Shown here piece by piece: positions 26,426 to 54,256 of a stretch of 64,000 nt of DNA (positions are counted from its first letter, which is position 1; each line of letters opens with the position of its first letter). Origin of the DNA: Chaetoderma sp. LZ-2023a. Taxonomy: Eukaryota; Mollusca; Caudofoveata; Chaetodermatida; Chaetodermatidae. The stretch is from NCBI GenBank assembly GCA_034401795.1, contig CM067365.1, forward strand, positions 8,652,009 to 8,716,008, given 5' to 3'. The position numbers and the translations under genes are program-made. The notes beneath the pieces were generated by a model that saw only the letters and a program-made list of their open reading frames with translations, did not search any database and was not told the origin of the DNA.

Positions 26426-27162
26426 TAAACGTACTCAATGGCATGCCCTTTTTGGAAACCACTCTGCTAATTGCTGTTGAATGTTTTTCATAAAATACGT
26501 CTTTCATATCACAGACTGTGCGCATAAAATACACTAATTATACGCATGCAAGCATGTAATGAAGCTTGCCACGATGAAAGTCCAGTGTTAGCACTTGATC
26601 CCAGAAAAAAAGTACTGACCAATATGTTTTGGGCGGAATTTTTTACATCACTTTGAACTCTTCCTACTTTCAAATTTCTTGCAGTGCCATATTATAGGGT
26701 GCACGGGGGCAAATTCAAATTTCTGACGTGTCCGTACGATTAGAGTGCTGAAAATTGGCATACATTGAACTTTATAAAATAATAACCTTGGAGAATTCTT
26801 TGATGATCACCAATTCACAGTATTTATGAAAATATAACTGTATCTTTTTTGCTATCAATATGTTTTGCGTTATAATAAGAAAGTTAGCGAATAAATTTGT
26901 TCAGGACAATACATCGTTTACAAATATAGCCAACTTAGCGCGGTCTGTGGTCAGATTACGCGTAGAATTAATCATTTGTAATAATAATACATGGTCCAGG
27001 ATAATTTTAGAAACTGGCAATTAATGTAAATCAAAAGCCAATTATGACTTTTGCGTGTAACAGGTTGAAATAAAGTAACCTAATATGCTTATTCACTATG
27101 ATATCGTGGTTGTGAACACGTGCTATGCTTGAATTCCTTATGGGTTTTTAATACATTCAACA
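26426..27162. other. No gene recognised upstream of the nuclease-like gene
   Basis: AT-rich, no recognisable motif or clear promoter box. May be the 5' flank of the gene that starts at 27163. Confidence 0.5.
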
Positions 27163-30100
27163 ATGAGTTATCAATTAGATGAAAATTGCATTCCCATGCC
27201 GGGTATCTTATCTGAGGGGAATTGTGTTGTTTGTCGGGAGGTTATGGGAGATGATAAACAAAACGTTTATAAAAAAAGGTCTTGAAATGCTCATTCGTAT
27301 AAGTCATCTTCGGGGGGATAGAAAACTGAATGAATATTTATTAGAAAGATCGGTAACACTGCCCATTGGTAACGTGTATGTACACAAGAGATGCTGGGCT
27401 GATTATACTAGGGATCCAGAAGCTGACCTGAGAAGAGGTAGAACAGATAGTGACAGTGGTGCAACAACATCAAAAAGATTAAGATCAAGTACGGAGCCTT
27501 TTGACTGGACGGGCGGTTGCTTTTTGTGTGGGAAAACAGCAGTCTTTGACAGTAAATATCCAGGCAAAGACTCGGTGTCAAAGGTCACCTTGCTTGCATT
27601 CAGAAAATCTGTCTTGAATCAGTGCATGAAACGAAATGACACCTGGGCTCATCAAAGTATGTTAAGAGTAGATTTAGTTGCATCATCAGCCCAATATCAT
27701 TGCAAATGTTATACAGATTTCTTCTGTTCCGCAAACACTACTAATGTACCAGTCGGTCGGTCAACAGATTCAAAGAAGCAAAGCTGGTTTGAGGCACCTT
27801 GCCATTGGCTGGATGATGAGGGGGTGTCAGAAAAATTGATATCACGGAAATATACGAGAAGATGATAGAGATATCCAGTGGTAAAGAAGTTTACGGCATT
27901 AATAACCTGAGAGAGAAACTGCACGACCATTACGGCAACCACATATTCTGGTCGTGAATGAAAGGGGTTCGTGAAGATGTATTATGTTTCCATGATATGG
28001 CTAGTTACATGGTACATGAGAAATGGCACTCCGAAAAGAGAGAAAATGTCAAACTAGAAACTGAAAGAATAGTTGATACGTGTGCTAAACTACTGAAAGA
28101 CGAGATACGTCAGCGAGAGTACGCAAAACAATGTTATCCGAGTAGCAATGATATTAGTGATATCGGTAAAGGAAGGGAGTTTCTCACCCCACTAACTCGT
28201 ATATTTATTGAAACAATGATAGAAAATGATAAAAGCATTGGTCAAGCTCTCACTCAAGCTGTGAGACCATCTTCTGTAATGTCGCCTATTTTGTTTGGTA
28301 CCGTGGTAGAGATGGACCATGTATTTGGTTCAAGGTGGCTGATAGACGAGCTGTTCAGATTGGGATTTTCCATCTCATATGATGAATTAACTTTGTTTAA
28401 GCAATCTATTTTACAAGAGGAAAATCTCAGCACATTGTCACCAGATAGCGACGCAGAAATCACACAGTGGGCCTCGGATAATGCTGACCATGATGTCCGA
28501 ACACTTGATGGTGGCAACCAGTTTCATGGTATGGGTACAATATCAATGTCGGCTGTAAAAGGATACCAAAAAAACTGTGATCAGCATGTTAGATGCATGA
28601 CAAAATTGGCAGTGTCTGAACTAGTGGGTGACAAGGGGATACAAATCGTTCAATAGGTAGGGCCAATGTTAGCATCACTTTCCTCCCTAAAGTTCAAACC
28701 AATACTGGAATCCCAACGACCCTATATCGTGCCACCAGCATGATAGTATGCCAACCTGCTGTTGCAATGAGCACGTGTGTTTAATAAATTGAGTAGACCA
28801 ATGCCAAATTATTCTGGATTCATGCAGTACTTCTACAAGCCCCTTGATGATGGTACTGAGAAATGGCAAGTCCTTATTCTTCCATTCATAGACCTCAACC
28901 CAAATGACGAGACTTGTCTGTACTCTACGCGTTTATACATTCACGATCAGTCAAGCAAACTGATGCAACCCAGTGCATCAATCACATTTGACCATCCACT
29001 CTGGCAGAAAGCAGTTGAAATTATTACAGCAAAAGATCTCAACCGGTTGGTTTGTCGACTTGGTGGATTCCATCTTCTAATGAGTGCATGTGGTAGTATT
29101 GGCAATGTGATGAAAGGGTCCGGTCTTGAAGAATCAGATTTTTGCGGGAAAAGCAATTTCCAGGGCTTCACGTGCAGATTTTCTTGTTGAACAATCGCTT
29201 ATGACAAAGCTGATTTCTGATCTATTACCTGTAGATGCTGAACTATCCAATTCTGTATGTACACAACAGCCAGATAGATTAACAACCAATCAAGTAATCA
29301 AACTGGAAGAAATGGTTCGATGTGCTCTAGAAGACGAATGTATACCAATCAATGAGATTTCCGATTTGGAAGAACTGGTAGCATTAGATCTATGTATTAT
29401 TAAACACATGGCAAAATTGGAAAGCAAGTCACGTACAGTCAATTATTGGATTTTGTATCTGTACTACATAAGCATCATTAGAGAGTTCATACATTGTGAA
29501 AGAGTCTGTGATTGGGAAGGGCATCTCACAGCTGTTGGAAAGCTGTTGAATCTTTTCGCGGCTTCAGGGCATATTAATTATGAAAAAAGTGCTAGACTTT
29601 ACCTGCAAATGATGAGAGATTTCCCGACCAAAACCCATGGTTGTACAATAAATTCTCTACAGGTCACCATGCAGTTCGTAGGAGTGATAAGCACTGGGCT
29701 GGATTATGGACTGATCTATGCATAGAGCAGATTCTTATGCGATCAATGAAAGCTCGAGGAGGTCTGACACATGGTCGTGGCAAATCTGAAAGCGTTAGGC
29801 ATCAATGGATCTATAGCATGCATCACTGTACAGCTGTTCAAGAGGCAATGACCAGCTTAACAAATCGTCAAAATGCAACAAGTGAACAACATGCGGAACT
29901 TGGTACATCTAGGTGCACGCGAGATTTTGTATACATGGAGAAGATCCTAGATTGGTTTGAACAGCACAACCCATTCGATGACGAGGTGTCCACGATAAGG
30001 TCGTTGGCAACTGGGCTAACGGCATCTGACTATGATGGAATTAATTGTGACATGGCTGGACAAGTGGGTTTGAAGATCCAGCAATCACTTGATGATCTCA

Positions 30101-31719
30101 ACTAGTTCGTACATTGAATGACCTCCCGCCCAGTATCAAGCTCGGGAAAAAACCTATCCAGATTGAGCCGAGTGTTTTATTCTTGCGATGTACGGCACTG
30201 GCAAAACGAGAATCTGAAGACGTCACACCTTATTTTAAGTATGAACTTTCTTCCATACCTACATCGCTGTTCAAAGACTATTTCATGCAAAAATCAGATA
30301 AATTAAAATTAGCCAGGGATATCAAGAAAGAGCTCCACAATGTCAGCCATGAAATGACTAATGTTACGAAAGACACCATGCCAGTAATAGATGGTGGTTG
30401 GCTGCTCCATCATATTAGATGGAAAACAATGTTACGTATCAAGAAATTGCCAAACAATATGAAACCTTTCTCAGCAATAAATTTGGAAAGTGCTGTGTTG
30501 TATTCGATGGATACGAAGGACCATCCACAAAAGACCACGAACATCTGAGGTGCTCTGGAACAACGTCTGCGGATATCACTGTCACAGATATATCAAAGTG
30601 TCACAAAGATAAAGAGGCATTTTTCTCCAACATGAGGAACAAGACACAGTTCATACAGCTTCTTGTTAGATTCTTACAATCTAAGGGTTATATCGTTAAG
30701 TGTAGTGATGGCGATGCAGACACCTTGATTGTATCAACTGCTCTGGACTTTTCGAAAAGCGGTCAATCAGTAATGGTTGTAGTGGAAGACACATACATTT
30801 TTATTATGCTAATTCACCACTGGAAAACATATATAGCTGATATATTTCTAGTAAACGAGAAAAAAACAAATGGACCGAATAAAACTGTGCAGATGTACAG
30901 CCTTCACGAAGCACATGAAGTGATGAATCCAGCATTGCACGACAACATGCTGTTCATCCATGCATGGAGTGGTTGCGATACAACTTCATCTACCTTTGGA
31001 CAAGGAAAAACTCATGTAATGAATGTCTTGTCTAAACAGAGCAAACTACAGTTACTAGCTCATGAAATGGCTGACACTGAGACGACATCCCAAGACGTCG
31101 GTAATGCCAGTATATCTGTTTTCTGTATCCTTTATGGAGGGAAAGATTTTGAATCACTGACATCCTTGAGATACATGCGTTATCAAGCAATGATTGCACG
31201 GTGTAATAAAATTGAGCCTGAGAGACTTCCACCAACTGATCGAGCGGCTCATTATCACAGTCTCTGTGTCCATCTGCAAATTGTCCAATGGGCTGAACTC
31301 GATTACAAGTGCCTTAATTCGTACGAATGGGGCTGGAAGTTGGAAAACAAGGTTATGCGCCCAGTCATGACAGATATCGACGCTGCACCTGCAAATGTTC
31401 TGAAATTTATTCGTTGTAATTGTAAAATTACTAATAAAACCCAATGTGGAACAAGGCAATGTTCATGCTACAAATCAGGATTACACTGTGTCACTGCATG
31501 TGGCAGTTGCGGAGACACGTGTAGCAACAAGGTTGTTCCTTCCAGATGTGAAGACGTTGCCGATGATGGTGAACAAGATTTTGATACGTGTACGGGCAAA
31601 GATAGCAGACAAGATGTGCTTCTTGGATACTCCTTTGTAATGATTTTTACATCTGTCAGAATCCTCAGTTCTCGTTGTTTAAAATATACCGCATTCACCT
31701 ATAGAAATATATGTCTTTA
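27163..31719 (+). pseudogene. FEN/XPG-like nuclease + CXC-domain protein, copy 1, broken
   Basis: About 1,450 codons in several frames. The proposed start is ATG 27163, upstream of the longer open frame at 27179, because it supplies an N-terminal C-V-V-C pair before a frameshift in a run of seven A (about 27281). Layout: N-terminal cysteine pairs (CVVC; CFLCGK; VHKRCW; YHCKC) suggesting zinc ligands; a long middle region (YSGFMQYFYKPL, RLGGFHLLMSACGSIGNVM, GGLTHGRGKSE); then VVFDGYEGPSTKD, SDGDADTLIV, a decayed third acidic motif VEDTYIF, and SGCDTTS-x(3)-GQGK. These resemble in order the N-region, I-region acidic motifs and GSD motif of FEN/XPG nucleases. The end is a CXC module (31415-31530; C-N-C ... 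C-S-C-x(4)-GLHC). At least seven lesions: frameshifts near 27281, 27838, 29150, 29700 and 30480, and stops at 27955, 28654 and 30103. I recall similar large uncharacterised proteins from many aquatic invertebrates; I know no assigned function. Confidence 0.75.
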
Positions 31720-31749
31720 AAATTCTTGATAGAAATTATAACTCTGAAA

Positions 31750-31842
31750 CTGTTGACTAATTTAAATACAATTTGACTGAAAGTTGTTGGTGACTTAGCC
31801 CACACTATCTTTCAGTCAACCCGTTTTCAAAGTAGTCAACAG
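31750..31842. repeat. Hairpin of the family A palindrome type, GAAAGTTG subtype
   Basis: Arms ctgttgactaattt / aaagtagtcaacag and caatttgactgaaagttg / ctttcagtcaac. Lies about 30 bp after the end of copy 1. The same subtype lies after copy 2 (39113-39196) and at 52855-52985. Confidence 0.75.
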
Positions 31843-32250
31843 GTCCAGAATTTTAGCAAAATAACATTATTTCCAAGTGGTTCGCAGCAGCAACAGAGTT
31901 AAAATATAGGTTAAAGTTCAAGAAATGGCAGCCATTTTAAATTTACTTTTGCACCATAGCTATGTGTCCACGAGCAAGAAAAACTACCAGAAACAATTAT
32001 TCCTTATGATACAGATAGCAAACAGTAATTCTTACATAATAAAAGAAATGCTTGTGTACATATTGGGAATGATGTTGCTGAAAGCTGTTGCTGTTTTAAA
32101 TTGCATCAGCTTACAACAGCATTATTTCCAACATGGACACCAGCTGTAATGTCAAAGGAATGGAATTTGAGACTCATAAATTTCTATGACTGAATCATAT
32201 TGGTGTAGTAATCATGTTTTTTGCTTTTCATTTCAGTAACTGACTGAGTC
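31843..32250. other. Spacer between the two nuclease-like genes
   Basis: AT-rich, with gcagcagcaacag and aaagctgttgctgtttt words reminiscent of hairpin arms. No coding frame with a recognisable motif; may be the 5' leader of copy 2. Confidence 0.5.
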
Positions 32251-34962
32251 ATGGTGTCTTCGTGTATCTTGGGTTGCTTCAAGACAGAGGATACCCTTAC
32301 TTCTGCAGCAAATCGAATCCGAAGTATCATTACTGCAAGCCAACAGCGAGGCGACACTCTACACATAGACTTAGATCTAGAAACTCGATTAGAGTCTAAT
32401 CCATACCTGACAATCCAGTGCCACAAATCATGCGTTTATTCGTATACATCCTTTGGTCATTGAAAAAGCGAGGCATTCAAGAACGATCGGCAAGTGAGCC
32501 GCCTCCGCGTAAACGTCGGTCACCCCAGTTCGATTTTAGACACCAGTGCTTCATATGTGGTGAACGGTGCTTGCCGCGAGATACAAAACACCCAGACAGA
32601 TGGAATGTTGTAGTACAGTGTCGGACAGTTGATCGCCCCGGTCAAAAAACATTCAAGGACGTCCTACTTGAAAAGTGTGATGAGAGGGGTGACGCAATTT
32701 CAGATGAAATGAGAATCAGACTTTTTGGAGCACCATCTGATCTCCATGCCACCGATGCCCAGTACCACAAGGATTGTAATGCGACATTTATGACTGGTAA
32801 AAACCTATCTGCGTGAGGTGAAAGTAGTTCACATTCTGGGCAGCCATGTGAGAATGAAGCCATATCTACTGTCGCGTCAATTATCAGGAAAGATCAAAGT
32901 TGCGTATGGACATCAGTGGAGCTCCACAAACTGTATCGCGATCTAAATATCACATCTTCACCATTAGCACGGCGACAGTTCATCAACAACCTACTCGACT
33001 ATCTTGGGAATGATGTTTTGGAAATGAGAATCAAAGGGTGTGCAAGTCTTATTGCGTTCACACAGTATATTCCGTATAAGTTATGTGAGGTTAATGATGA
33101 TGATTCCGGTGATAGTGTAGACAATCTAGTTAAACAAATGGCTAATGAAGCAAAGGGAATAACCCAACCACGCGAATTACTCTCTCATCAGAACAAGTAT
33201 CTGGGTGGATTCTCTTTATCAACGTGTGCAATATGGTTTTCTTTGCAATGGACAAGTTATTTGATGAAAGTGATGACGAATATGATGTAAGACAAGATAT
33301 ACATAAGGAAGAGGGGGAAAAGTGGAAGAAGCTCGATTCTTAAGCCAGAAAAAAGATTAACATGGAGTTTCAGACACATATCAATCCTTTGTAGACGGAT
33401 TCAGCTGAATATTTGTAATGGCTGCGTTGCAGATGACAAAGTGAATGTCCATAATGCTACATCTATTGGTGAGGAAATGACATCGGAGTTCAAAGACTGT
33501 CTCCCTGAAGGTTTCTATAAAGCATTGCATAAGAGAGTTGTTACAATGGAAACAATGAAAAAACCATCCAGGTTGGTGATTCAACTGCCATATATGACAC
33601 AGAAAAACTTTTTGGCCGCCTCTTAATTCTCTCACAAAAACGAGACATGGGTCTCTGTGACGTGTTCCGGTATGAACTCGCTCCCCTCCCTTCAGCTCTG
33701 TTTGATGACCATATCAAGATGCGGAAAACAACAAAGGCAGTGCTAGTGAAAAAAACATGGAGTGATAACATCAGATGCCAGTGACTCAAAAATAGACGCT
33801 AACATTTTTGATGGAAATGTAATGCTGTATCGTGTTTCTTGGCCCAAAACAGGACATGTACGCCAGCTAACTTCCAACTTCATGACAGCTATACAGAGAG
33901 AAGAAACATGTGTGTATGTTGTGTTTGATAAGTATGATGCAGCCTCAACAAAAGACTACGAGCGGAACAGACGTGCTGGCAACAAGCTACATCGGAATTA
34001 CAATCTTACCTTAGACACAGAGCTTCTATCTCGTGATGCGCTAATGAAGAACACACACAACAAACAACAAGTGATTAAACTCCTCTGTGAAGCTAACACA
34101 TTAACGACTGTTAACCTCTTTGGAGAAGACATTTGCATTTTCGGTCATGGTGAGGCAGATATCAATATTATTTCGTATATGATGATGCTGATCAATCTAG
34201 GCAAGAAGAATATACAGGTACTGGCTGATGACACTGACATTTTCCTGCTTCTGGCTTATTACTGCTGGAAGGATGACCTTGATACTAGACACCATTAGCA
34301 TGAAGAAGTCAGATGGTTCGGTTATTAACATTAACTCTTCAGCTTCGCAGCTTGGAGAACAATGCCGTAACGTTCTCGCCATGCATGCTCTGACGGGGAG
34401 TGATACAACAAGTTACCCATTCGGTAAAGGGAAGTTGTTAGGTGTAAAACTGCTAGCAACGGTCAATCTGCAATCTGTTGGCAACAAAACGTGTGCGGTA
34501 GAAGAGGTGATCAAAGCTGGAAGACACTTCTTTTCCTTGTTGTATGGATCTAAATCGGATATCACCATGGGAGAACTCAGGTACAAGACGTTTTCTAGCA
34601 GATCGGATGCGCCCAAGATTAAGTCATTACCTCCAACAGATGGTGCATTGCGGGAACACATTCTCCGAGCACATTTACAGGTGTTACTATGGAAGTCTGC
34701 ACATGAAATGGACCCTCCTAAGTTAAATGTTCAAGACTGCGGTTGGAGCCTTGTCAATGGAACTCCAGAACCTATCTTAGGTGTAACCTTACTTGCCGCT
34801 CCAGAACTGTTAAAGGTTGTGTCGTGTACGTGTGTTTCAGACAAAGCATGTTCACGTAATATTTGTAGTTGTAAAGCTTCAGGGCTCTCATGCACTACCT
34901 ACTGCAAGTGCGAAGGTCTAGAACAATGTAACAACCCACACACTGAACACTCTCTAACTTAT

Positions 34963-37900
34963 CTTTTTCTTCTTTTCGATCGCTGGTATCACACTTGGAG
35001 AGCCGTTCTCAAGATGAAATCTGTGGTTTTCTGCAGTTCTTCCACAGGCCCATACAGCTTTTCAAGAAAAGAGGTTGACAAAGGCCAGATCTCTTCTCTC
35101 AGCAGCTGATACGTACTGCAACATTGAAGTATGTGCTCTGTGGTCTGTTTCGCTTCTCCACAAGGACATGCGGGCGATGTCGTAAGGTGGAACCGCCTGT
35201 ACATGTGTTGGTTTAGTTTGTTGTGTCCAGTTCTGAGACGAAAAATGGTCACTTGCTCTGGCCTCGAGAGATGATGGTAGGCATCTTCTGATTGAGGTGT
35301 TCTATAGAGTGACTTGATGATAGTCTTCATCTCTGTATGGGTAACCATGTTTTCTGTCTGATTCTCTTCTGCACCCACCTTTGCCATCTTGTCTGCTTCC
35401 TCATTTCCTTGGACTCCACAGTGTGAGGGGATCCACTGCATTGCTATCCGAAAGCATTTGATGGTTTGTAGTGCTTCTTCAAGTTGTGGCAGCTTACCTT
35501 TGGTGATAGCCTCAAGGACGGAGCGGGCATCGGATAAAAAGCCAATCTGTGCAATAGGGTCTGCTGTTCTGCTGATGGTATTAGCCGCATGAACCAGTGC
35601 GTCGACATCAGTTCTGTAGTTTGTGCAGTGTTTGCCTGTCGGTATTGCAGCTGACTCATGTTGTCCGTTTGGATACTGTATGTGCAGTCCGGCACCTCCG
35701 CTCCGAATTGCATCTTTGGCTGATCCATCTGTGTAGATCCTTATCCATGTCTCCTGAGGGTACATTTCTTCCAGCATGGCTAGGGTCTGCGCCTTCTTGC
35801 TTACATCAATGTGTTCATCTTTGGTTGTGAGATGAGGTACTGTGGTGCGAATAGCTATGCTCTCTAGTTTGTTTTCCCAGGGTGAAGGATCAAGGGTGTG
35901 GTTTGGGTCTTCTATTTGTGCTGGCAACATTTCTTGGTGTTTCCTTTGAAGTGCTTTTGTCTCTTTCACAAAACTTGATCTTTTAAGTCTTCCTGATGAC
36001 AGCTGTGCGTGCCTGATCTTCATCGGGTTGTTGTTGAATGATTTGAGCTTTGCGGTTTAGATCAGTGCTTTGCATTCCCTTCCTTTGCTAAGTGGGGGGA
36101 TGCCTGCTGTCTGCTCCATTTTTTCTATTGGTGTTGATCTCATTCCACCAGTGATGATGCGCAGTGCCTGGTTTTGTACTCTGTCGAGGTTCTGTTGATG
36201 AGATTTAGCTGCTGTCATCCATGAGCTGGATCCATACTCAAGGTGTGGTCGTACGCACCTAGGTAGATGGTCTTGAGGATCCTTTCATTGGCACCCCACT
36301 TTGTTCCTGCCAGCTTCCTCATGATTTTTAGCTTTCTTCTGGCCTTTGCCTCTGCGTTCTGGATGTGCTCCTTCCATGTTAATCTTCTGTCATAGGTGAC
36401 CCCCAGGTATGTCTGCTGGTCCTCGTACTCGAGTGTAGTACCGCCCAGTGTCACACTGCCAACCTTGGTTTTGGTGGACAGTAGGAATAGCATGGCTGAT
36501 GATTTTTCTTTGTTGATGGTAATACACCAGCGATTGGCCCAAACTGTAATTCGGTCCAAGGCGAGCTGCATTCTGTACGTACGTGGCAGTCGTTGTGTAC
36601 TCCTCGGTGCACCAGAGTACGAGGTCATCTGCATAGAGGGCTGCTTGGATCCCATTGGGCAGCTCTGCTACAATGTCATTAATGAAGAGTATGAACAGAG
36701 TAGATGAAAATACTCCGCCCTGTGGCACCCCTTGTCTCAGCAATACATTCTGCCCAGATTGTCCATCCACCAGCACCCTAGCTCTGCGATTGTGTAGGTA
36801 TGACTTGGTCCATCGGAACATGTTGCCACCGATGTCTGTGCGCCGGAGCGTCAGAAGGAGGCCACCCTTCCACACCTTGTCAAATGCCTTCTGCAGATCG
36901 ATAAAGGCAGATAGCATCACCTTCTTGGATTGAAAAGTGTCCTCTATGACCTGTGCAAGAGGTGTTGTTTGATCTTCTGTGCTCCTGTATCTTCTGAAGC
37001 CGGCCTGCTCTGAAACTATAATGTTCTCCGACTCTAGGTACCAATGCAACCACTGGTTAATGATGCGCTCCATGGTCTTGCATATGCAGCTTGTAAGACT
37101 GATAGGACGGTATCTCAGCACTTTCGTCTTGTTCTTCCCTTTTTTCAGAATAGGAGTCATTCTGGCTTCCTTCCAGCACTGAGGAACCTCTCCATTGGTC
37201 CAACTGAGATTAAAGATGTCTAGCAACTTGCGAAGAGATGCATTACCAAGGTGTTGGATCATTTCATTCGTAATGCCATCTGGCCCGGGAGATTTCTGCA
37301 TCTTCAATTGGCGGATAGCCTGCTTCAGTTCTGCTAAACTAATGTAAACTCTCATTGGATTGTGAGTGTTGGTGTCTGTTCTTTCCTTTTGCTCTTTTCT
37401 AACCTCTTTTTGACGCATTCGTGGTATAGAAATGTTGCTCTCTTTTTTGCATATGCCTTTGCAAAGGCATCTGCAGCCATCTTTCCTGTCAGTGTTTGTC
37501 CATCTTCTTCAAGAGTAATCTTCTCTCCCCCGACACCCTCATCATTCAGTGCTTTAGTCAGTCTCTATAGCTTTGTGGTGTCTCTCTCTAAATTAAACCC
37601 TGCCGTCTTTTCCCTCCAGCTTCTTCTTTTGACCTCCAGCTTGGTCTTTAGATACCTGGCTTTAGTTTGTTGTAGCGTGATGTGGTTTTCTTGACAGGGA
37701 TTACCCTCTGCATCTTCTCTGGCCTTGTCTAGTTTATCATGTGCTGCTTGCAGTTCTGTTGTCCAGTAGGGGCGGTAGTTTTTCCTGAACCCTCGAGGAA
37801 TCGCTTCGTTGGCAGCCTTGAGGATACTTGAATTAAATTCCTTGACCACATTGTTGATGTTTCTCCCTTCTACTGCTATATTTTGGGTAAGCTCATTGGA

Positions 37901-38884
37901 ACGAATGCCGAACAGACTCCAATTTGCCTTTTTGTAGTTCCACCTTGGATGTTGAGGTGAACTTGTCGAAATACTTCCAGAAAGAGAGAGAGGAGGACTG
38001 GGCGGTGGTCGCTTCCTCCTAACTGCGATCCGACCACCTTACTGAGGTTTCTGTAAATGTCTTCTGTACAAAATGCCAAGTCCGGCATTGTTGTCGAGTG
38101 CCACCAGCACGAGTAGAAGGTAGGCTGATCTGTGGGATCGTTGACAAGTAAAAGGTGCTTTTCATCTTGCCATGCTTCAATGTCTTCTCCTCGTTTATCA
38201 AGTGTTCTGTATCCCCAGCTCTGGGACCGGCTATTAAAGTCTCCCGCAATGAGGAAGTGGCAGTCAGGGACCTGGATTGTGTCAAGTGAGAGATTCTTGT
38301 CTTTAGGGCTGTAATAATTGACAATGTCAATCACAGAGTTGCTGGTTGTTACCTTGATCTTGATATATTCTGCCTCTTCCATAAAGGTTTTTATCTGGCT
38401 GGCGTTCACGCTGTTTCGGACTAAGGTGATCACTCAGCCTTTCTTTCTTCCTCTTCGATCACACCGGAAAATCTGGTAACCTCTGATCTTAAATGGTTTT
38501 CCTTCTTGCAGATGTGTCTCTTGGATGCAGCAGATATCAATGTTGTTTTCGTACAGGAACTGTTCGAGCTCTGATTTTTTGTTGGTAACCCCTTCTGCGT
38601 TCCGGTGCATGATGTTGATACTGGGGTTCTCTTTGGGTTTGGACGAGTTGATCGGACCTCCAGTAGCTGAGGGTGGGCTCCTTCGAGGCCTAGAGCCCGG
38701 CGCTGCACCTGCCTGGCGGATCCTCACAGGGCGAGCACCATTTCGGTTGATTCGATCTCCAAGTGTCATTTCATTAGCGTTGTGCATATTGCTCTGGTTA
38801 GCCACTCCAAATGTCTGGATTGACACCCAGTGGGTTACACCCCTGCGCCACGTTGAGGCCGAGCATATAGTCTTAAACAGGGAA
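34963..38884 (-). mobile_element. Non-LTR retrotransposon with EN, RT and RNase H, flanked by a 14-bp TSD
   Basis: The target-site duplication actctctaacttat is present at 34949-34962 and 38885-38898. The element reads on the minus strand, starts near 38884 and ends at a (AAG)n-type tail next to 34963 (gatcgaaaagaagaaaaaga read on the minus strand), without a long poly-A. Total 3.92 kb, apparently full length with one main ORF. A 3'-truncated, nearly identical copy is at 53744-54284. Confidence 0.9.
34989..38826 (-). pseudogene. LINE polyprotein: endonuclease, reverse transcriptase, RNase H
   Basis: The start region at 38826 has no obvious ORF1. APE-type endonuclease motifs: CIQETHL, then after a frame change AGDFNSRSQSWGY and GGSDHRP. 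Reverse transcriptase (36390-37418 frame): RYRPISLTS (residues 102-110), FIDLQKAFD (172-180), GVPQGGVFS (230-238), ALYADDLVLW with YADD at 262-265. RNase H (34989-36023 frame): YTDGSA (97-102), FLSDARSVLEA (162-172), HCGVQGNEEADKMAK (201-215); the usual glutamate after the second strand appears as D in TDVDAL. It ends with C-P-C-G ... H ... C-C. Domain order and the RNase H place it in the I/Jockey group of LINEs. Frameshifts near 38434, 37860, 37560, 36500 and 36100 inactivate it. Confidence 0.9.
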
Positions 38885-39112
38885 ACTCTCTAACTTATGA
38901 CGAAGAGGATGACTCTGATAGTGACAATTAGTTTATGCATACTGAAAATTAATTTATTTGTAGTGACAGTTAGATACAATGTACGGTCAAACACCTCGTG
39001 TCTCTTTCAAAGTATGGTCACTAAATACAGGAGATCACTTAAAAGATATATATCATAGTAGATAGCCTTGATTATATCACTGTTAATTTTCGCAGACATT
39101 TACAGGCGGTAT

Positions 39113-39196
39113 GCCAATATTTTGAAAACAATTTGACTGAAAGTTGGTGATTAAGCCAGCAACAATTTTCAGTCAAATTGTTTTCAAAATATTTAG
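39113..39196. repeat. Hairpin, GAAAGTTG subtype, downstream of copy 2
   Basis: Arms aatattttgaaaacaatttg and caaattgttttcaaaatatt with an imperfect middle around gaaagttggtg. About 180 bp after the stop of copy 2. Confidence 0.8.
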
Positions 39197-39429
39197 CATG
39201 TGCAGAATTACTTTCTTGTCTTGTGGCTCACTGTAGCGAGACAGTTAAGAGCACAAGATGAGAATTTTAAGACAAGCAGTCTTACAAGCACATCTGTCTT
39301 AAATTCGTCATCATCGGGCCCCAAAAGCAGGTGTCCATTATATACAGGTTTGACTGTATAGGCGAGTGTGTGCATGCTTGCTTGTATATCTGTCACATAC
39401 AGTTGAACAAAATGGTTAACCCTTTGAAA

Positions 39430-40200
39430 TGTATTAAATTGTCCAACTATTGCTAAAATTTGTTTATAAAATTGCTCTATTTAGAAGGTGCTCAAATTCA
39501 AGATGGCCGCCATGTCATTAAATTTGATTTGTATGCAAAAAATTTAACCAACTATTTCTTGGGAAGATAGTTCACTCCATTTGAATGTTATTTTAATTCA
39601 TAATTTATTGTGGTTTAATAATTATAATCAAAATTTCATTGAGAAAAAATCCTAAAATGACGTTAATGGCCGCCATTTTGGATTTTTTGCTAATATTAAA
39701 AAATGCACAACGGTGCCAGGGCGGCACCCACCAGATATGTTTTCAGGACCTATTCCCGATATCGAATCTGCAAAAAACGTTTTAAAACCCATATTGCAAG
39801 GTTCCACCAAAAATCCCCATCTGGCAACCAGACTATAATATGACCATAGGGGAGCAAGAAAACGTTGCAATTTTTCCCCCAGCTTCTCCAAAGTCCGCTA
39901 GCCTAATACATTCCATCAAACACATTATGGTGAACAAATGACATGAGACTGACATTTGGCAAGAATCTTATGACAATGTCCTCGCTTGGAGTAAAGTTAA
40001 AAAAAAATCGATAATAACGCGCGCGCCCGCTCGCTAGCGTTTGTTGTTTACCGATGCGTAAAGATTAATGCATTTTTAAGTAAAGCTACAAGCACGATGT
40101 TCCAGTTAACGTTAACAGTAGTAAGTACAATGAATTGTGGGAAATTGGTTGGAGACCGAATGCCTTATCATTCACTGCATAGCATACATTAAAAAAATTA
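39430..40200. other. No gene recognised; repeat-like
   Basis: Contains two palindromic gatggccgccat / atggccgccattttgg words (about 39503 and 39667). A minus-strand frame at 39652-39891 lacks any recognisable domain. Confidence 0.5.
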
Positions 40201-40207
40201 AGAGCCG

Positions 40208-42420
40208 CCTTATGAGCATCAAGATAGTAATAATAATAATAATAATAGTACATTTTTAGAGCGCTTAATCCATGCAACTGCATGCTCTAAGCGCTAACGC
40301 GCGTAAGTATTCTATGGATATGCTATTTGAAATAAATAGAATTTAAGATTGGATTTAAAGATTTCTAAAGTTGATGAGTTTCTAATTTCATTTGGTAAGT
40401 TATTCCATTCGGTAGCTGCAGTGAAAGAGAAAGTTTTATGGCCATATGTTTTAGAGTTGACCTTAGGTACTTTTAGTAGATTTAGATTTGCAGATCTGAG
40501 AGAGCGACCAGGAATGTAAGGTTGTACAAGGTCAGAGAGATAGGCTGGTGCTGTGCCAGATACACATTGGTATGTCAGACATAGTGTCTTAAAAGTTATT
40601 CTTTGCACAATGGGGAGCCAGTGCAAATCATGTAGGACCGGAGTAATGTGTTCTCGCTTGGCACACAGGGATATGATTCTCGCTGCAGTGTTCTGGACCA
40701 CCTGAAGTCGCTGAATAAGTTCTTTTGAGGCGCCAATCAGGAGGCTATTACAATAATCCAGGCGCGACGTTATCAATGCTCGTACTAGCATGATCGCGGC
40801 CTCTTTTGTGATATAGCGCCTGATGCTGCCGATATTGCGCAATTGAAAATAGCAGACTTTGCAGATGTAACTAACATGTTTATCCATAGTCAGTTCATTG
40901 TCTAAGTATACACCAAGATCCTTTACGACAGTTGACAGCTTTATTTGACTATTTCCAGCTGTGATGTCACATAGGTCAGTCTTAGCACGTCGGTTTGCTG
41001 GCCCGACTAACAGAGCTTCGGTCTTTTCATCGTTAAGTTTCAGCATGTTTGTAGTCATCCACTCTTTAATGTCTATATAACACATATTGAGCTGACTTGT
41101 TGCTAAGCGTGCAGTACATGTTGAAGGTTCAAAACTAATGACAAGCTGTGTGTCATCAGCATAGAAGTGACGCATAATGTTGTGCTGATCAATAACCGAT
41201 CCAAGTGGTTGTGTGTAGAGTGTAAATAACACCGGACCTAGAATAGACCCCTGAGGCACACCACACACGAGGTTGACTGGTTCTGAAAGTGTGCCGTTAA
41301 TATATACAGACTGGTGTCTATCGGATAAATATGAGTGAAACCAGTTCCAGACAGTGCCTTGTAAACCAAATACACTACTCAATTGTGACATAAGTAAATG
41401 ATGGTCTATCGTATCAAATGCGGCACTGAGGTCAAGGAGTAGCAACAATGACACATTACCTCTGTCTACCGCCTCTCGAATATTATTGAGGACGCATAAT
41501 AGAGCAGTCTCCGTGCTATGACGCTGACGGTACGCTGACTGAAACGGTTCATATAACGCATTGTCACTTACATGAGCTGATAGTCTTTTGAACACCGCCT
41601 TCTCGATTAGCTTAGACATAAAAGGCAGGTTCGAGACAGGTCTATAGTTTTTTAGAGTATCTTCGTCTAGGCCAGACTTCTTCAACAGTGGTTTGACAAC
41701 TGCCCGCTTAAATGTCATTGGCATGAGGCCAGATTCTAAGCTGGAATTAACCAGCATAGTTATTGTTGGGAGCAAGATGTCAATGTTTTCAAGCACGATT
41801 TTCGTAGGAATGGGATCGAGAGTACAAAATGTTGGTTTTAATTCCTTTAAAAGAGCCATTATATCGCTTTCAGAAAATGAAATGAAATTGTCAAAAGTTT
41901 TATGAGCGAACATGGTTTGATTGGAGAGAAACGCAGCTGAATCATTTGACTGTTGCAATTGTGTACGGATATCCTCGATCTTGTCATGAAAGAAGTCAGA
42001 AAATGAGCGGGCGATCATTGTAGGATCATCACCATGTGGTAGAGAACAATCTCTTTTCTTACCCAATAAGGCAAACATTGTATTATACAATTCCTTAGGG
42101 TTAGACTTGCTTTCTAGAATCTTATCATTAAAAAAGGATTGTTTAGCACTCGCAACAGTCTTAGTGACGATGTTTCTCGCATCAACATAAATCTGACGAT
42201 GTACTTCTAGATTTGATTTCCTCCATCGTCTCTCCGCCTTTCGTCTGTTTGATTTGGCTATTGCAACCTCGGGTGTAAAAAGCCAATGCGACTGTTGTCT
42301 CTGAGGAATTGTTTTTAACTTCTCAGGAGCATGCACGTCTAGAAGACGTACTAGTTCTGTGTTATAAAGGTTAGCAAGACGTTCACAGTCAGGTGGTGGC
42401 ATATACACAGATGCTCATTT
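40208..42420 (-). mobile_element. 5'-truncated CR1/L2-like LINE
   Basis: Minus strand. The ORF (42408-40312) is followed by a short 3' untranslated region with a small palindrome (gcgcttaatccatgcaactg / gcatgctctaagcgc) and a (TTA)n-type tail at 40208-40249. This is the 3' end style of L2/CR1-related elements. No endonuclease domain upstream, so the copy is 5' truncated. Confidence 0.85.
40312..42408 (-). CDS. Reverse transcriptase of a CR1/L2-like LINE, intact 698-codon frame
   Basis: An uninterrupted frame. The N-terminal 180 residues are the linker that normally follows the endonuclease (WLFTPEVAIAKSNRRKAERR). RT motifs: NYRPVSNLPF (254-263), DLSAAFDTIDH (326-336), GVPQGSILGP (383-392), YADDTQLV with catalytic YADD at about 416-419, then KLNDEKTEALL and LGVYLD. 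The C-terminal thumb-like region ends with a TATEWNNLPNEIRNS block characteristic of CR1-type elements. No RNase H and no endonuclease. The enzyme would copy element RNA at a nicked target, but without the endonuclease this copy could not act autonomously. The intact frame implies a young insertion. The first methionine is probably internal to a longer parent ORF. Confidence 0.9.
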   Translation of the reverse strand: MYMPPPDCERLANLYNTELVRLLDVHAPEKLKTIPQRQQSHWLFTPEVAIAKSNRRKAERRWRKSNLEVHRQIYVDARNIVTKTVASAKQSFFNDKILESKSNPKELYNTMFALLGKKRDCSLPHGDDPTMIARSFSDFFHDKIEDIRTQLQQSNDSAAFLSNQTMFAHKTFDNFISFSESDIMALLKELKPTFCTLDPIPTKIVLENIDILLPTITMLVNSSLESGLMPMTFKRAVVKPLLKKSGLDEDTLKNYRPVSNLPFMSKLIEKAVFKRLSAHVSDNALYEPFQSAYRQRHSTETALLCVLNNIREAVDRGNVSLLLLLDLSAAFDTIDHHLLMSQLSSVFGLQGTVWNWFHSYLSDRHQSVYINGTLSEPVNLVCGVPQGSILGPVLFTLYTQPLGSVIDQHNIMRHFYADDTQLVISFEPSTCTARLATSQLNMCYIDIKEWMTTNMLKLNDEKTEALLVGPANRRAKTDLCDITAGNSQIKLSTVVKDLGVYLDNELTMDKHVSYICKVCYFQLRNIGSIRRYITKEAAIMLVRALITSRLDYCNSLLIGASKELIQRLQVVQNTAARIISLCAKREHITPVLHDLHWLPIVQRITFKTLCLTYQCVSGTAPAYLSDLVQPYIPGRSLRSANLNLLKVPKVNSKTYGHKTFSFTAATEWNNLPNEIRNSSTLEIFKSNLKFYLFQIAYP

Positions 42421-45072: not shown

Positions 45073-46727
45073 TACACCTGTGCAAAAGTTAAGCACCAGC
45101 AAAAACAATAGAACGTAGAAACATGATGGTACAACTAGGCTGCCATACTTTTTGTCCCCGCGTTAGCTGACATAATTCCAAGTACGAAATGCACATGCAT
45201 GCATGACTTCACGCCGCTTGATGTCCGTGCGTGGCGGGAAACAGCACACGTGTTCAGTTATGTAAAAGTCCAGTTTGAGGTGTAGAACATTACATACAGA
45301 TTTAGGCGACAAGATTAGGAATTTTGTGTTCATGACCGTGGTTTATTTGTACAGAGAGAATTAGCTCTTGATTGTGAACCGCTATGGCAAGACGAAGGTT
45401 AAGTGATCGTGTGAAATGGCAAATCATAGGCATGCATACCACTGGTATGTCATGCAGAGAGATTGGCAGACAGCTGAACATTAACCATACTGTAATCAGT
45501 CGTTTGATTGCAAAACATGGGCAAACTAACGAGGTGAAGGACAGGCCTAGATCTGGAAGACCGAAGAAGACTACTGCCCGTGATGATCGAGCCCTAGTAC
45601 GCCTTGTTAGGAGATCTCCATTCACCAACAGCAGAGTGCTCATCCAGCAATGGGAAACGCGCAATAGAGTGTCAATGTCTACCGTCAAAAGGAGACTGTA
45701 TGCTGCTGGCATGAAAGCTAGGAGACCTGTCAGACGTCCTCTCCTCACTGCACACCACAAAGAGGAGCGTCTGAGGTGGTGCAACGAAAGAAGACACTGG
45801 AACATGAGATCCTGGGTACACTGGTCCGATGAAAGTCGGTTCCTGCTTCATGCCACAGATGGTCGAACTCGTGTATGGAGGTCCAGACGCACGGCGTACG
45901 ACCAACGTAACATCATGGAAGAAGTTCCATTTGGTGGAGGTTCCGTTATGATATGGGGGTGCATCTCATTTGATTGTAAGCTGGATCTGTTGACTGTACC
46001 TGGAACACTAAATGGACAAAGATATCAAGATTCCATACTGGATAGAGTTGTGGTCCCTCATTTTGTAAATCATGCACCTGGAACCCACCCTATATTCATG
46101 GATGACAACGCCCGACCACATCGTGCTAGAGCTGTGCATGAATACCTCCGCCAGAATGCCATCGAAACCCTACCATGGCCAGCAAGGAGCCCTGACATGA
46201 ACCCTATTGAGCATATCTGGGACATTCTGGGAAACATGGTGAGAAGGAGGGATCCTCCTGTGCAGAACCTACAGGAATTAACAGACGCACTCCATCTTGA
46301 ATGGCAACGAATGCCACAATGGCGTATCAGTCGGTTGGTGACCAGCATGAGACGTCGTGTCCAGGCCGTCATCCAGGCATAAGGTGGATATACCCGGTAT
46401 TAATAATGACAGTCTCAAACTCGTGCACAGATGTTAAACTTCGTTTTCAGACACCATTAATGACAATCTAGCCACGTGTGTCAACTGTAGGGCAATAGTT
46501 GTCAGTTGTGTCAACGTAACCATATTCAGGCCTCGTTTTCAAGTTCAAACAAAAACATACAGTGTTTCCCCACCATCATAATCAGCATTCCTCTAGTTGC
46601 ATTATTACCTCTTGCACTAAGATGGATGGGTACATAAATGTTTATGCTATTGCTTTCTTCATAGCACATGAATATACCCTCGCATGTGCGTAAAAATAGG
46701 GTGGTGCTTAACTTTTGCACAGGTGTA
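45073..46727 (+). mobile_element. Full-length Tc1-like transposon
   Basis: Perfect 26-bp terminal inverted repeats (45073-45098 and 46702-46727; outer bases tacacctgtgcaaaagttaa), duplicated TA target (45071-45072, 46728-46729), 1,655 bp long, one intact transposase gene. Comparison with the empty R3 repeat confirms the exact ends. Confidence 0.95.
45384..46382 (+). CDS. Tc1-like DD34E transposase, intact (332 aa)
   Basis: Cut-and-paste transposase of the IS630/Tc1/mariner superfamily, acting in the nucleus on the element's inverted repeats. Residues 5-45 form the first helix-turn-helix (GMSCREIGRQLNINHTVISR). GRPKK at 58-62 is the AT-hook/GRPR-like linker. About 64-120 is the second helix-turn-helix. 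The catalytic triad is D149 (WSDESRF), D241 (MDDNARPH) and E276 (NPIEHIWD), with exactly 34 residues between the last two, plus the glycine-rich FGGGSVMIWG at 183-192. Length is normal for Tc1 transposases (about 340). The first ATG is used because it precedes the first helix and the frame is open throughout. All catalytic residues are present, so the protein could be active. Confidence 0.95.
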   Translation: MARRRLSDRVKWQIIGMHTTGMSCREIGRQLNINHTVISRLIAKHGQTNEVKDRPRSGRPKKTTARDDRALVRLVRRSPFTNSRVLIQQWETRNRVSMSTVKRRLYAAGMKARRPVRRPLLTAHHKEERLRWCNERRHWNMRSWVHWSDESRFLLHATDGRTRVWRSRRTAYDQRNIMEEVPFGGGSVMIWGCISFDCKLDLLTVPGTLNGQRYQDSILDRVVVPHFVNHAPGTHPIFMDDNARPHRARAVHEYLRQNAIETLPWPARSPDMNPIEHIWDILGNMVRRRDPPVQNLQELTDALHLEWQRMPQWRISRLVTSMRRRVQAVIQA

Positions 46728-53535: not shown

Positions 53536-53743
53536 TATTTCTACATCGGAAATAATGTAAAGTACGATATTTGCAGGATAAAATGGTTAGTTCTTTTCTT
53601 TTCTTTTCCATTCAAGCATGGCCGCTAAGAATCATTCGTGTCCTAACCTAGAAAGACATTGTCTGTATTAGCTAATTTATATTACGAAATCACTGGTCAG
53701 GTTAAATGTAAAGGCAATAAGAGTTACCCTATTCATGCCCTCC

Positions 53744-54256
53744 AAAGGTAAGCTGCCACAACTTGAAGAAGCACTACAAACCATCAAATGCTTTCGGATA
53801 GTATTGCAGTGGATCCCCTCACACTGTGGAGTCCAAGGAAATGAGGAAGCAGACAAGATGGCAAAGGTGGGTGCAGAAGAGAATCAGACAGAAAACATGG
53901 TTACCCATACAGAGATGAAGACTATCATCAAGTCACTCTATAGAACACCTCAATCAGAAGATGCCTACCATCATCTCTCGAGGCCAGAGCAAGTGACCAT
54001 TTTTCGTCTCAGAACTGGACACAACAGACTAAACCAACACATGTACAGGCGGTTCCACCTTACGACATCGCCCGCTTGTCCTTGTGGAGAAGCGAAACAG
54101 ACCACAGAGCACATACTTCAATGTTGCAGTACGTATCAGCTGCTGAGAGAAGAGATCTGGCCTTTGTCAACCTCTTTTCTTGAAAAGCTGTATGGGCATG
54201 TGGAAGAACTGCAGAAAACCACAGATTTCATCTTGAGAACGGCTCTCCAAGTGTGA
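53744..54256 (+). pseudogene. C-terminal RNase H and zinc-knuckle fragment of the LINE polyprotein
   Basis: An open frame of about 170 codons including the last RNase H motif (HCGVQGNEEADKMAK) and the C-P-C-G ... H ... C-C module. Only a handful of residues differ from the 34989-36023 frame (for example IAMQW to IVLQW, YGPVE to YGHVE). It lacks endonuclease, RT and the first RNase H aspartate, so it has no autonomous function. The leading methionine belongs to flanking DNA. Confidence 0.85.

Follow-up and report, generated by a model that had tools for sequence, protein, structure and literature searches.

Two neighbouring stretches of the genome of Chaetoderma sp. LZ-2023a, which the initial annotation had read as tandem copies of a gene fusing a flap endonuclease (FEN)/XPG-like nuclease to a CXC DNA-binding module, are probably decayed, nuclease-bearing DNA transposons of the Academ type (AcademX-like). 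They lie in a 64,000 bp window of contig CM067365.1 (assembly GCA_034401795.1, positions 8,652,009 to 8,716,008, forward strand), and are referred to here as copy 1 and copy 2. Judged by sequence comparison, copy 2 is a different transposon family inserted inside copy 1, as the 3' terminus of copy 1 was located past copy 2, so that the whole nested structure spans about 26598–39905 of the window. Its parts are as follows.

26598–31739, + strand: copy 1, a remnant of a family A element; blastn similarity to the relatives L012, L014, L015 and L017 stops at both points
27179–27865, + strand: N-terminal piece of copy 1 with Cys/His clusters (CFLC...YHCKC), an open frame, with like clusters in L037 and L038
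27958–30105, + strand: transposase-like core of copy 1, in four broken frames, overlapping or adjacent (27958–28656, 28771–29190, 29114–29725 and 29596–30105)
30096–30548, + strand: start of the FEN-like domain of copy 1 (MPVIDGGWLL, with the first-strand aspartate), a motif common to the family A and family B rows
30419–31720, + strand: remainder of the FEN-like domain of copy 1 and CXC array; DTY stands in the D-x-D position
31740–34962, + strand: copy 2 before the long interspersed nuclear element (LINE), by tblastn of the L037 protein and blastn comparison with L030–L036
34949–34962 (left) and 38885–38898 (right), no strand: 14 bp target duplication flanking the LINE
34963–38884, − strand: LINE (endonuclease, reverse transcriptase and RNase H), splitting the last codons of copy 2
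38885–39837, + strand: copy 2 after the LINE, comprising the acidic C-terminal tail and the 3' end ...AACCAGACTA, by comparison with relatives
39835–39905, + strand: family A 3' terminus ...CTAGCCTA, 77% identical to L012 7624–7706 over this short stretch

Other family A copies extend beyond the points matching 26598 and 31739, and in comparison with them the first ~100 bp and the last ~440 bp of the element are absent from copy 1 at these points. The 31739/31740 junction lacks ~360 bp of copy 1 as well as the 5' end of copy 2. Within copy 2 an N-terminal piece (~32270–33190) abuts the end of the core at ~33174; the FEN-like domain comes next (from 33750), then the CXC array. The core proper has been deleted, and where the similarity of the window stops (~33174) L031–L035 encode the counterpart of L037 residues 667–835. 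The LINE, which matched Pfam RVT_1, RNase_H and Exo_endo_phos_2, is missing from seven relatives (L030–L036) that pass directly from the position of 34962 to that of 38885. The tandem arrangement first proposed was therefore replaced by two diverged DNA transposons, one within the other, a tandem gene duplication being ruled out by the ends, the target-site duplications (TSDs) described below and the nesting of a copy 2 of different family. Palindromic stretches alike in both orientations were present near both ends of copy 2 (31737–31855 and 39114–39210), with similar stretches in relatives L031–L036, and are possibly subterminal hairpins of the copy 2 family.

Relatives of both copies were dispersed over many contigs of the genome containing the window (2.44 Gb, 2753 contigs). 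The protein encoded by copy 1 at 30419–31720 gave at least 109 matches (97 scored of 12,314 candidates) and a piece of copy 2 at least 132 (130 scored of 18,770 candidates), some of the latter hitting merely the LINE tail of the query; 12 of these 130 scored matches fell within a frame of 1485 amino acids and six within one of 1624 amino acids. The comparison covered 20 regions around copy 1 relatives. Inverted ends of the form TAG...CTA, forming terminal inverted repeats, were found in relatives, with the termini TAG(A/G)CTAG...CTAGCCTA in families A and B, TAGTCCGG in L037 and TAGTCAGGGAGCAC in L038. The elements are mobile and insert with a 3 bp stagger: perfect 3 bp TSDs flanked 10 of the 12 elements in which both ends were readable (L016 GTT, L017 ATA, L027 TAT, L021 TAA, L020 TGT, L023 TTA, L026 TAA, L022 TAT, L037 TGA and L038 CTA), and those of L014 and L015 contained one mismatch each. 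This count omits copies with one or no end found, for example L010, L012, L024, L019 and L025, and likewise L009, L011, L013, L018 and L028. The whole-genome copy count, combined with a search for ends and TSDs, thus yielded many copies with inverted ends and 3 bp duplications, in agreement with the earlier guess that the nuclease is transposon-encoded. Seven family A/B elements measured 5630–5799 bp, three others 3.2–4.1 kb, L037 ~6.4 kb and L038, measured from its ends, ~7.2 kb. L037 contains a frame of 1481 amino acids starting at an ATG, and L038 an open frame of 1624 amino acids.

Two further features of these relatives were observed. A tandem array of ~148 bp units with ~95% identity lies beside the family A copy in L012 (8172–9701). 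In L037 (1559–2274 and 6721–7964) the word AAGATGGC, which we take to be YY1-like, occurred seven times outside the reading frame against ~0.04 expected and was absent inside it, an excess due in part to repetition between the inverted ends; it was absent from the ends of L038 and L021 and occurred once in L017.

The families differed in age. An 801 bp stretch of L037 was found in at least 21 copies at ~100% identity and one at 97% (40 of 119 candidates scored), whereas family A copies were 88–93% identical to the window (40 of 220 candidates scored, not counting the window); these identities make family A the older of the two and mark the L037 family as a recent burst, and some relatives within this genome appear to have been active recently. 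The ratio of nonsynonymous to synonymous substitution rates (dN/dS) of the nuclease/CXC stretch between families A and B was 0.10, 0.12, 0.13 and 0.15 in four pairs that share sequences and have synonymous distances (dS) of 1.4–1.9, near saturation. The stretch has been under purifying selection between these two families. Values within families were 0.55, 0.67 and 1.00, the level to be expected when copies decay once inserted, whilst of five further pairs four were saturated at synonymous sites and L037/L042 gave 0.42.

Intact elements encode a single protein of ~1,480–1,630 residues in which Cys/His clusters, the transposase-like core, the FEN-like domain, the CXC array and an acidic tail follow one another from the N- to the C-terminus. 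The motif series claimed for the two window copies was recovered in full on the + strand. Copy 1 (30419–31720) carries VVFDGY, SDGDAD, EDTYIF, SGCDTTSSTFGQGK and then CNCKITNKTQCGTRQCSCYKSGLHC, which includes the CxC array, in that order; copy 2 carries VVFDKY, GHGEAD and DDTDIF in order at 33750–34298, and TGSDTTSYPFGKGK followed by CTCVSDKACSRNICSCKASGLSC with a CxC array at 34201–35109, its acidic tail being SLTYDEEDDSDSDN plus stop, with the reading resumed at 38885 past the LINE. Zinc-type Cys/His clusters near the N-terminus were present in both copies (27179–27865 in copy 1 and 32400–32816 in copy 2), as the initial annotation had suggested. The genome-wide matches to the 30419–31720 protein and the low dN/dS between families A and B indicate that the motif series is more than chance.

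Conservation of the motifs was counted by eye in an alignment of 24 rows, considering only rows with letters at the motif. The first-strand aspartate was present in 10 of 11 rows (the exception being L025), FD in 11 of 12 (L038 reads GD), the acidic-x-D motif (E/D-x-D) in all 11, D-x-D in 12 of 13 (the exception being window copy 1) and the GxD aspartate in 13 of 14 (the exception being L043), although these counts are not independent, since many of the rows share a family. When a profile of 15 rows was compared with the PDB, Exonuclease 1 (EXO1) was the top match (E 0.031), with an alignment spanning the motifs; the 13 listed chains comprised five of Exonuclease 1, one 5'–3' exonuclease, and otherwise annexins and one reductase. 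One of the 15 rows also touched NYN_YacP (0.041), a PIN-like family. AlphaFold2 modelling was run on residues 300–1481 of the intact relative L037, and the model was poor overall, with a mean predicted local distance difference test score (pLDDT) of 51.7; in the nuclease part (model residues 741–1090) 23 of 35 ten-residue blocks had a pLDDT of at least 75. Foldseek ranks 1–8 for this predicted model were all FEN-superfamily proteins (E 0.0054–0.38), namely T5 D15/T5 5'-exonuclease (three entries), Xrn1, ExoIX, XPG, Rad2 and GEN1. Single-sequence PDB searches gave weak matches, led by NSD-type histone methyltransferases in the case of copy 1 (E 0.35) and by a ribosomal protein in that of L037 (E 1.2), and no match was found among phage records. 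The ordered acidic motifs, the profile match to EXO1 and the Foldseek ranking support a divergent FEN/XPG-type nuclease domain in both copies, with a predicted FEN fold, as proposed originally. The domain resembles FEN1, EXO1, XPG and T5 nucleases in its acidic motif order and predicted fold, and differs from them in being too diverged for the Pfam XPG models and in being joined to a transposase-like core.

The cysteine array was named CXC-like because its pattern is alike by eye and because both window copies fell below the curated cut-off of Pfam TCR (12.0 and 12.4 against 23.5 bits). TCR/CXC was matched by three of the 15 rows (best E 0.0022), and the CXC module originally described is in this form present. 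It shares with Tesmin/TSO1/LIN54 CXC domains (Pfam TCR) C-x-C arrays of similar spacing, but differs from them in these low scores and in the site content of the element ends considered below.

The initial annotation had overlooked a transposase-like core of ~600 residues that lies upstream of the nuclease and is broken in copy 1. The pieces searched gave weak, sub-threshold Pfam matches, including CXC and likewise DUF6589, and L037 itself matched DUF6589 at E 0.0069 (15.6 bits against a cut-off of 27). A search of the genome with DUF6589 gave at least 102 places above the cut-off (102 of 1,025 candidates scored). One of the loci, L044, matched DUF6589 at 1.5e-13 and continues into the beginning of the same FEN-like domain. 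Homology of L044 to L037 (2e-17) and to a family B core (1e-13) was also found, and DUF6589 was matched by four of 19 rows of the core alignment. The Pfam entry, which carries no function, is thereby tied to these cores through L044, whereas L037 stays below its cut-off. This link between DUF6589 and the core of an inverted-repeat transposon is one of two modest gains of the analysis, the second being a young family with complete frames. A candidate catalytic triad common to the families was recognized by eye as [AVIS]DN, T-x-D-x-x-L and D-x-x-x-E, with single rows deviating; the corresponding motifs of copy 1 are SDNAD, TFDHPLW and TDLCIEQ. The order of strands and helices in a weak model of the core (mean pLDDT 52.9) was RNase H-like, and the core may be a DDE transposase.

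Several results weigh against this reading of the elements. All FEN matches had E-values above 0.001, in the profile search as in the 181 Foldseek matches, and annexins stood just behind EXO1 in the profile search with similarly weak E-values. The Pfam search proposed earlier returned the weak TCR matches, but XPG models were not among the matches of the window pieces, L037 or the 15 rows. TTYRAA, the LIN54-type CXC site, was not enriched at the ends of L037, L038, L021 and L017, which speaks against a LIN54-type binding site there. For the core, Foldseek gave no significant match (top, Transib transposase, E 1.1, probability 0.05) and a profile found no PDB chain, and for this reason the DDE assignment is put forward as an inference. 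Finally, membership of Academ is proposed on described features.

AcademX elements carry a 'Cys8' zinc finger, and their nuclease was reportedly described as XPG-like by Kojima in 2020. According to a published account, AcademX elements generate TSDs of 3 or 4 bp and AcademH elements TSDs of 9 or 10 bp, a difference related to the encoded nuclease or helicase (PMC10045372); the mean length of curated bivalve Academ elements is given as 5565 bp in another (PMC10294476). The present elements resemble AcademX in their inverted ends, 3 bp TSDs, encoded nuclease and size (~5.6–5.8 kb for families A and B), and differ from its sister lineage in the same superfamily, AcademH, which has a helicase in place of the nuclease and the longer TSDs. 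That the elements are transposons held, but the suggestion that they are undescribed is doubtful, since a nuclease-bearing Academ lineage with 3–4 bp TSDs is in print (PMC10045372); most likely they belong to an already known kind of transposon. A separate, undescribed inverted-repeat superfamily with a DUF6589 core, whose likeness to Academ stops at TSD length, size and a nuclease, appears unlikely: the likeness to AcademX was drawn from descriptions of TSD, nuclease and size, no paper mentioning DUF6589 was found in the literature searched, and none on a transposase CXC tail was seen among the titles listed, yet the inverted ends, the nuclease, the TSD length and the element size fit in every case what PMC10045372 and PMC10294476 say of Academ. 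It is highly improbable that the copies instead form a fast-duplicating host gene family of nuclease and CXC domains, perhaps for defence. Many diverged copies with a nuclease domain would suit such a family, but the copies have defined inverted ends with 3 bp TSDs, are dispersed over many contigs, lie in one case inside another, and within families show the dN/dS values of post-insertion decay given above. No copy under selection without ends and TSDs was seen among those examined, though domesticated copies are possible elsewhere. No sign of the suspected defence-type gene was seen, and a defence gene was ruled out by the ends, TSDs and nesting.

For the preferred AcademX-like transposon, a mechanism may be proposed in which the zinc modules would bind the element ends, a DDE core would free the 3' ends and join them at positions 3 bp apart, with cutting or trimming of the 5' (non-transferred) strands left to the FEN domain. 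In Tn7, TnsA cuts the 5' strands beside TnsB. The proposed split, with a DDE enzyme for the 3' ends and a second nuclease for the 5' ends, is similar, whereas TnsA forms a protein of its own and has a restriction-enzyme-like fold; the comparison is an analogy and no homology is claimed. That a single chain of a eukaryotic transposase holds two catalytic centres, with a DDE core for the 3' ends and a FEN-type flap nuclease acting in cis on the 5' strands, is offered tentatively, as a possible but on balance doubtful reading. The FEN domain might instead be a passenger that helps otherwise than by end cleavage, for example in post-insertion gap repair or the trimming of replication flaps, which we consider to have somewhat less than an even chance. 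In favour of this, FEN-type enzymes generally act on 5' flaps. The joining of the domain and the core in a single chain and the dN/dS of 0.10–0.15 for family A against family B point to a function closely tied to transposition, but fit end cleavage and later repair alike.

Other mobile sequences were observed elsewhere in the window. Just past the nested elements, at 40312–42414 (− strand), an open frame of 700 amino acids belongs to another, different LINE (Pfam RVT_1, E 1.5e-31). At 53672–54256 (+ strand) lies a second fragment of what is apparently the same LINE as in copy 2, its C-terminal residues being near-identical to 34989–36056 (− strand), and at 45378–46382 (+ strand) an open frame of 334 amino acids that resembles, by eye, a Tc1/mariner-type transposase.

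An apparently novel pair of nuclease–CXC genes is thus resolved into two nested transposons, and annotation would be misled by labelling frames of this kind as 'CXC domain proteins' or as expansions of nuclease families. With its complete frames, the young L037 family could allow a test of what a fused FEN-type nuclease does in cut-and-paste transposition. If a transposase with two catalytic centres were confirmed, it would offer an excision route other than hairpin formation, in a family whose youth permits a direct test, and DUF6589 would be identified as the transposase core of these elements.

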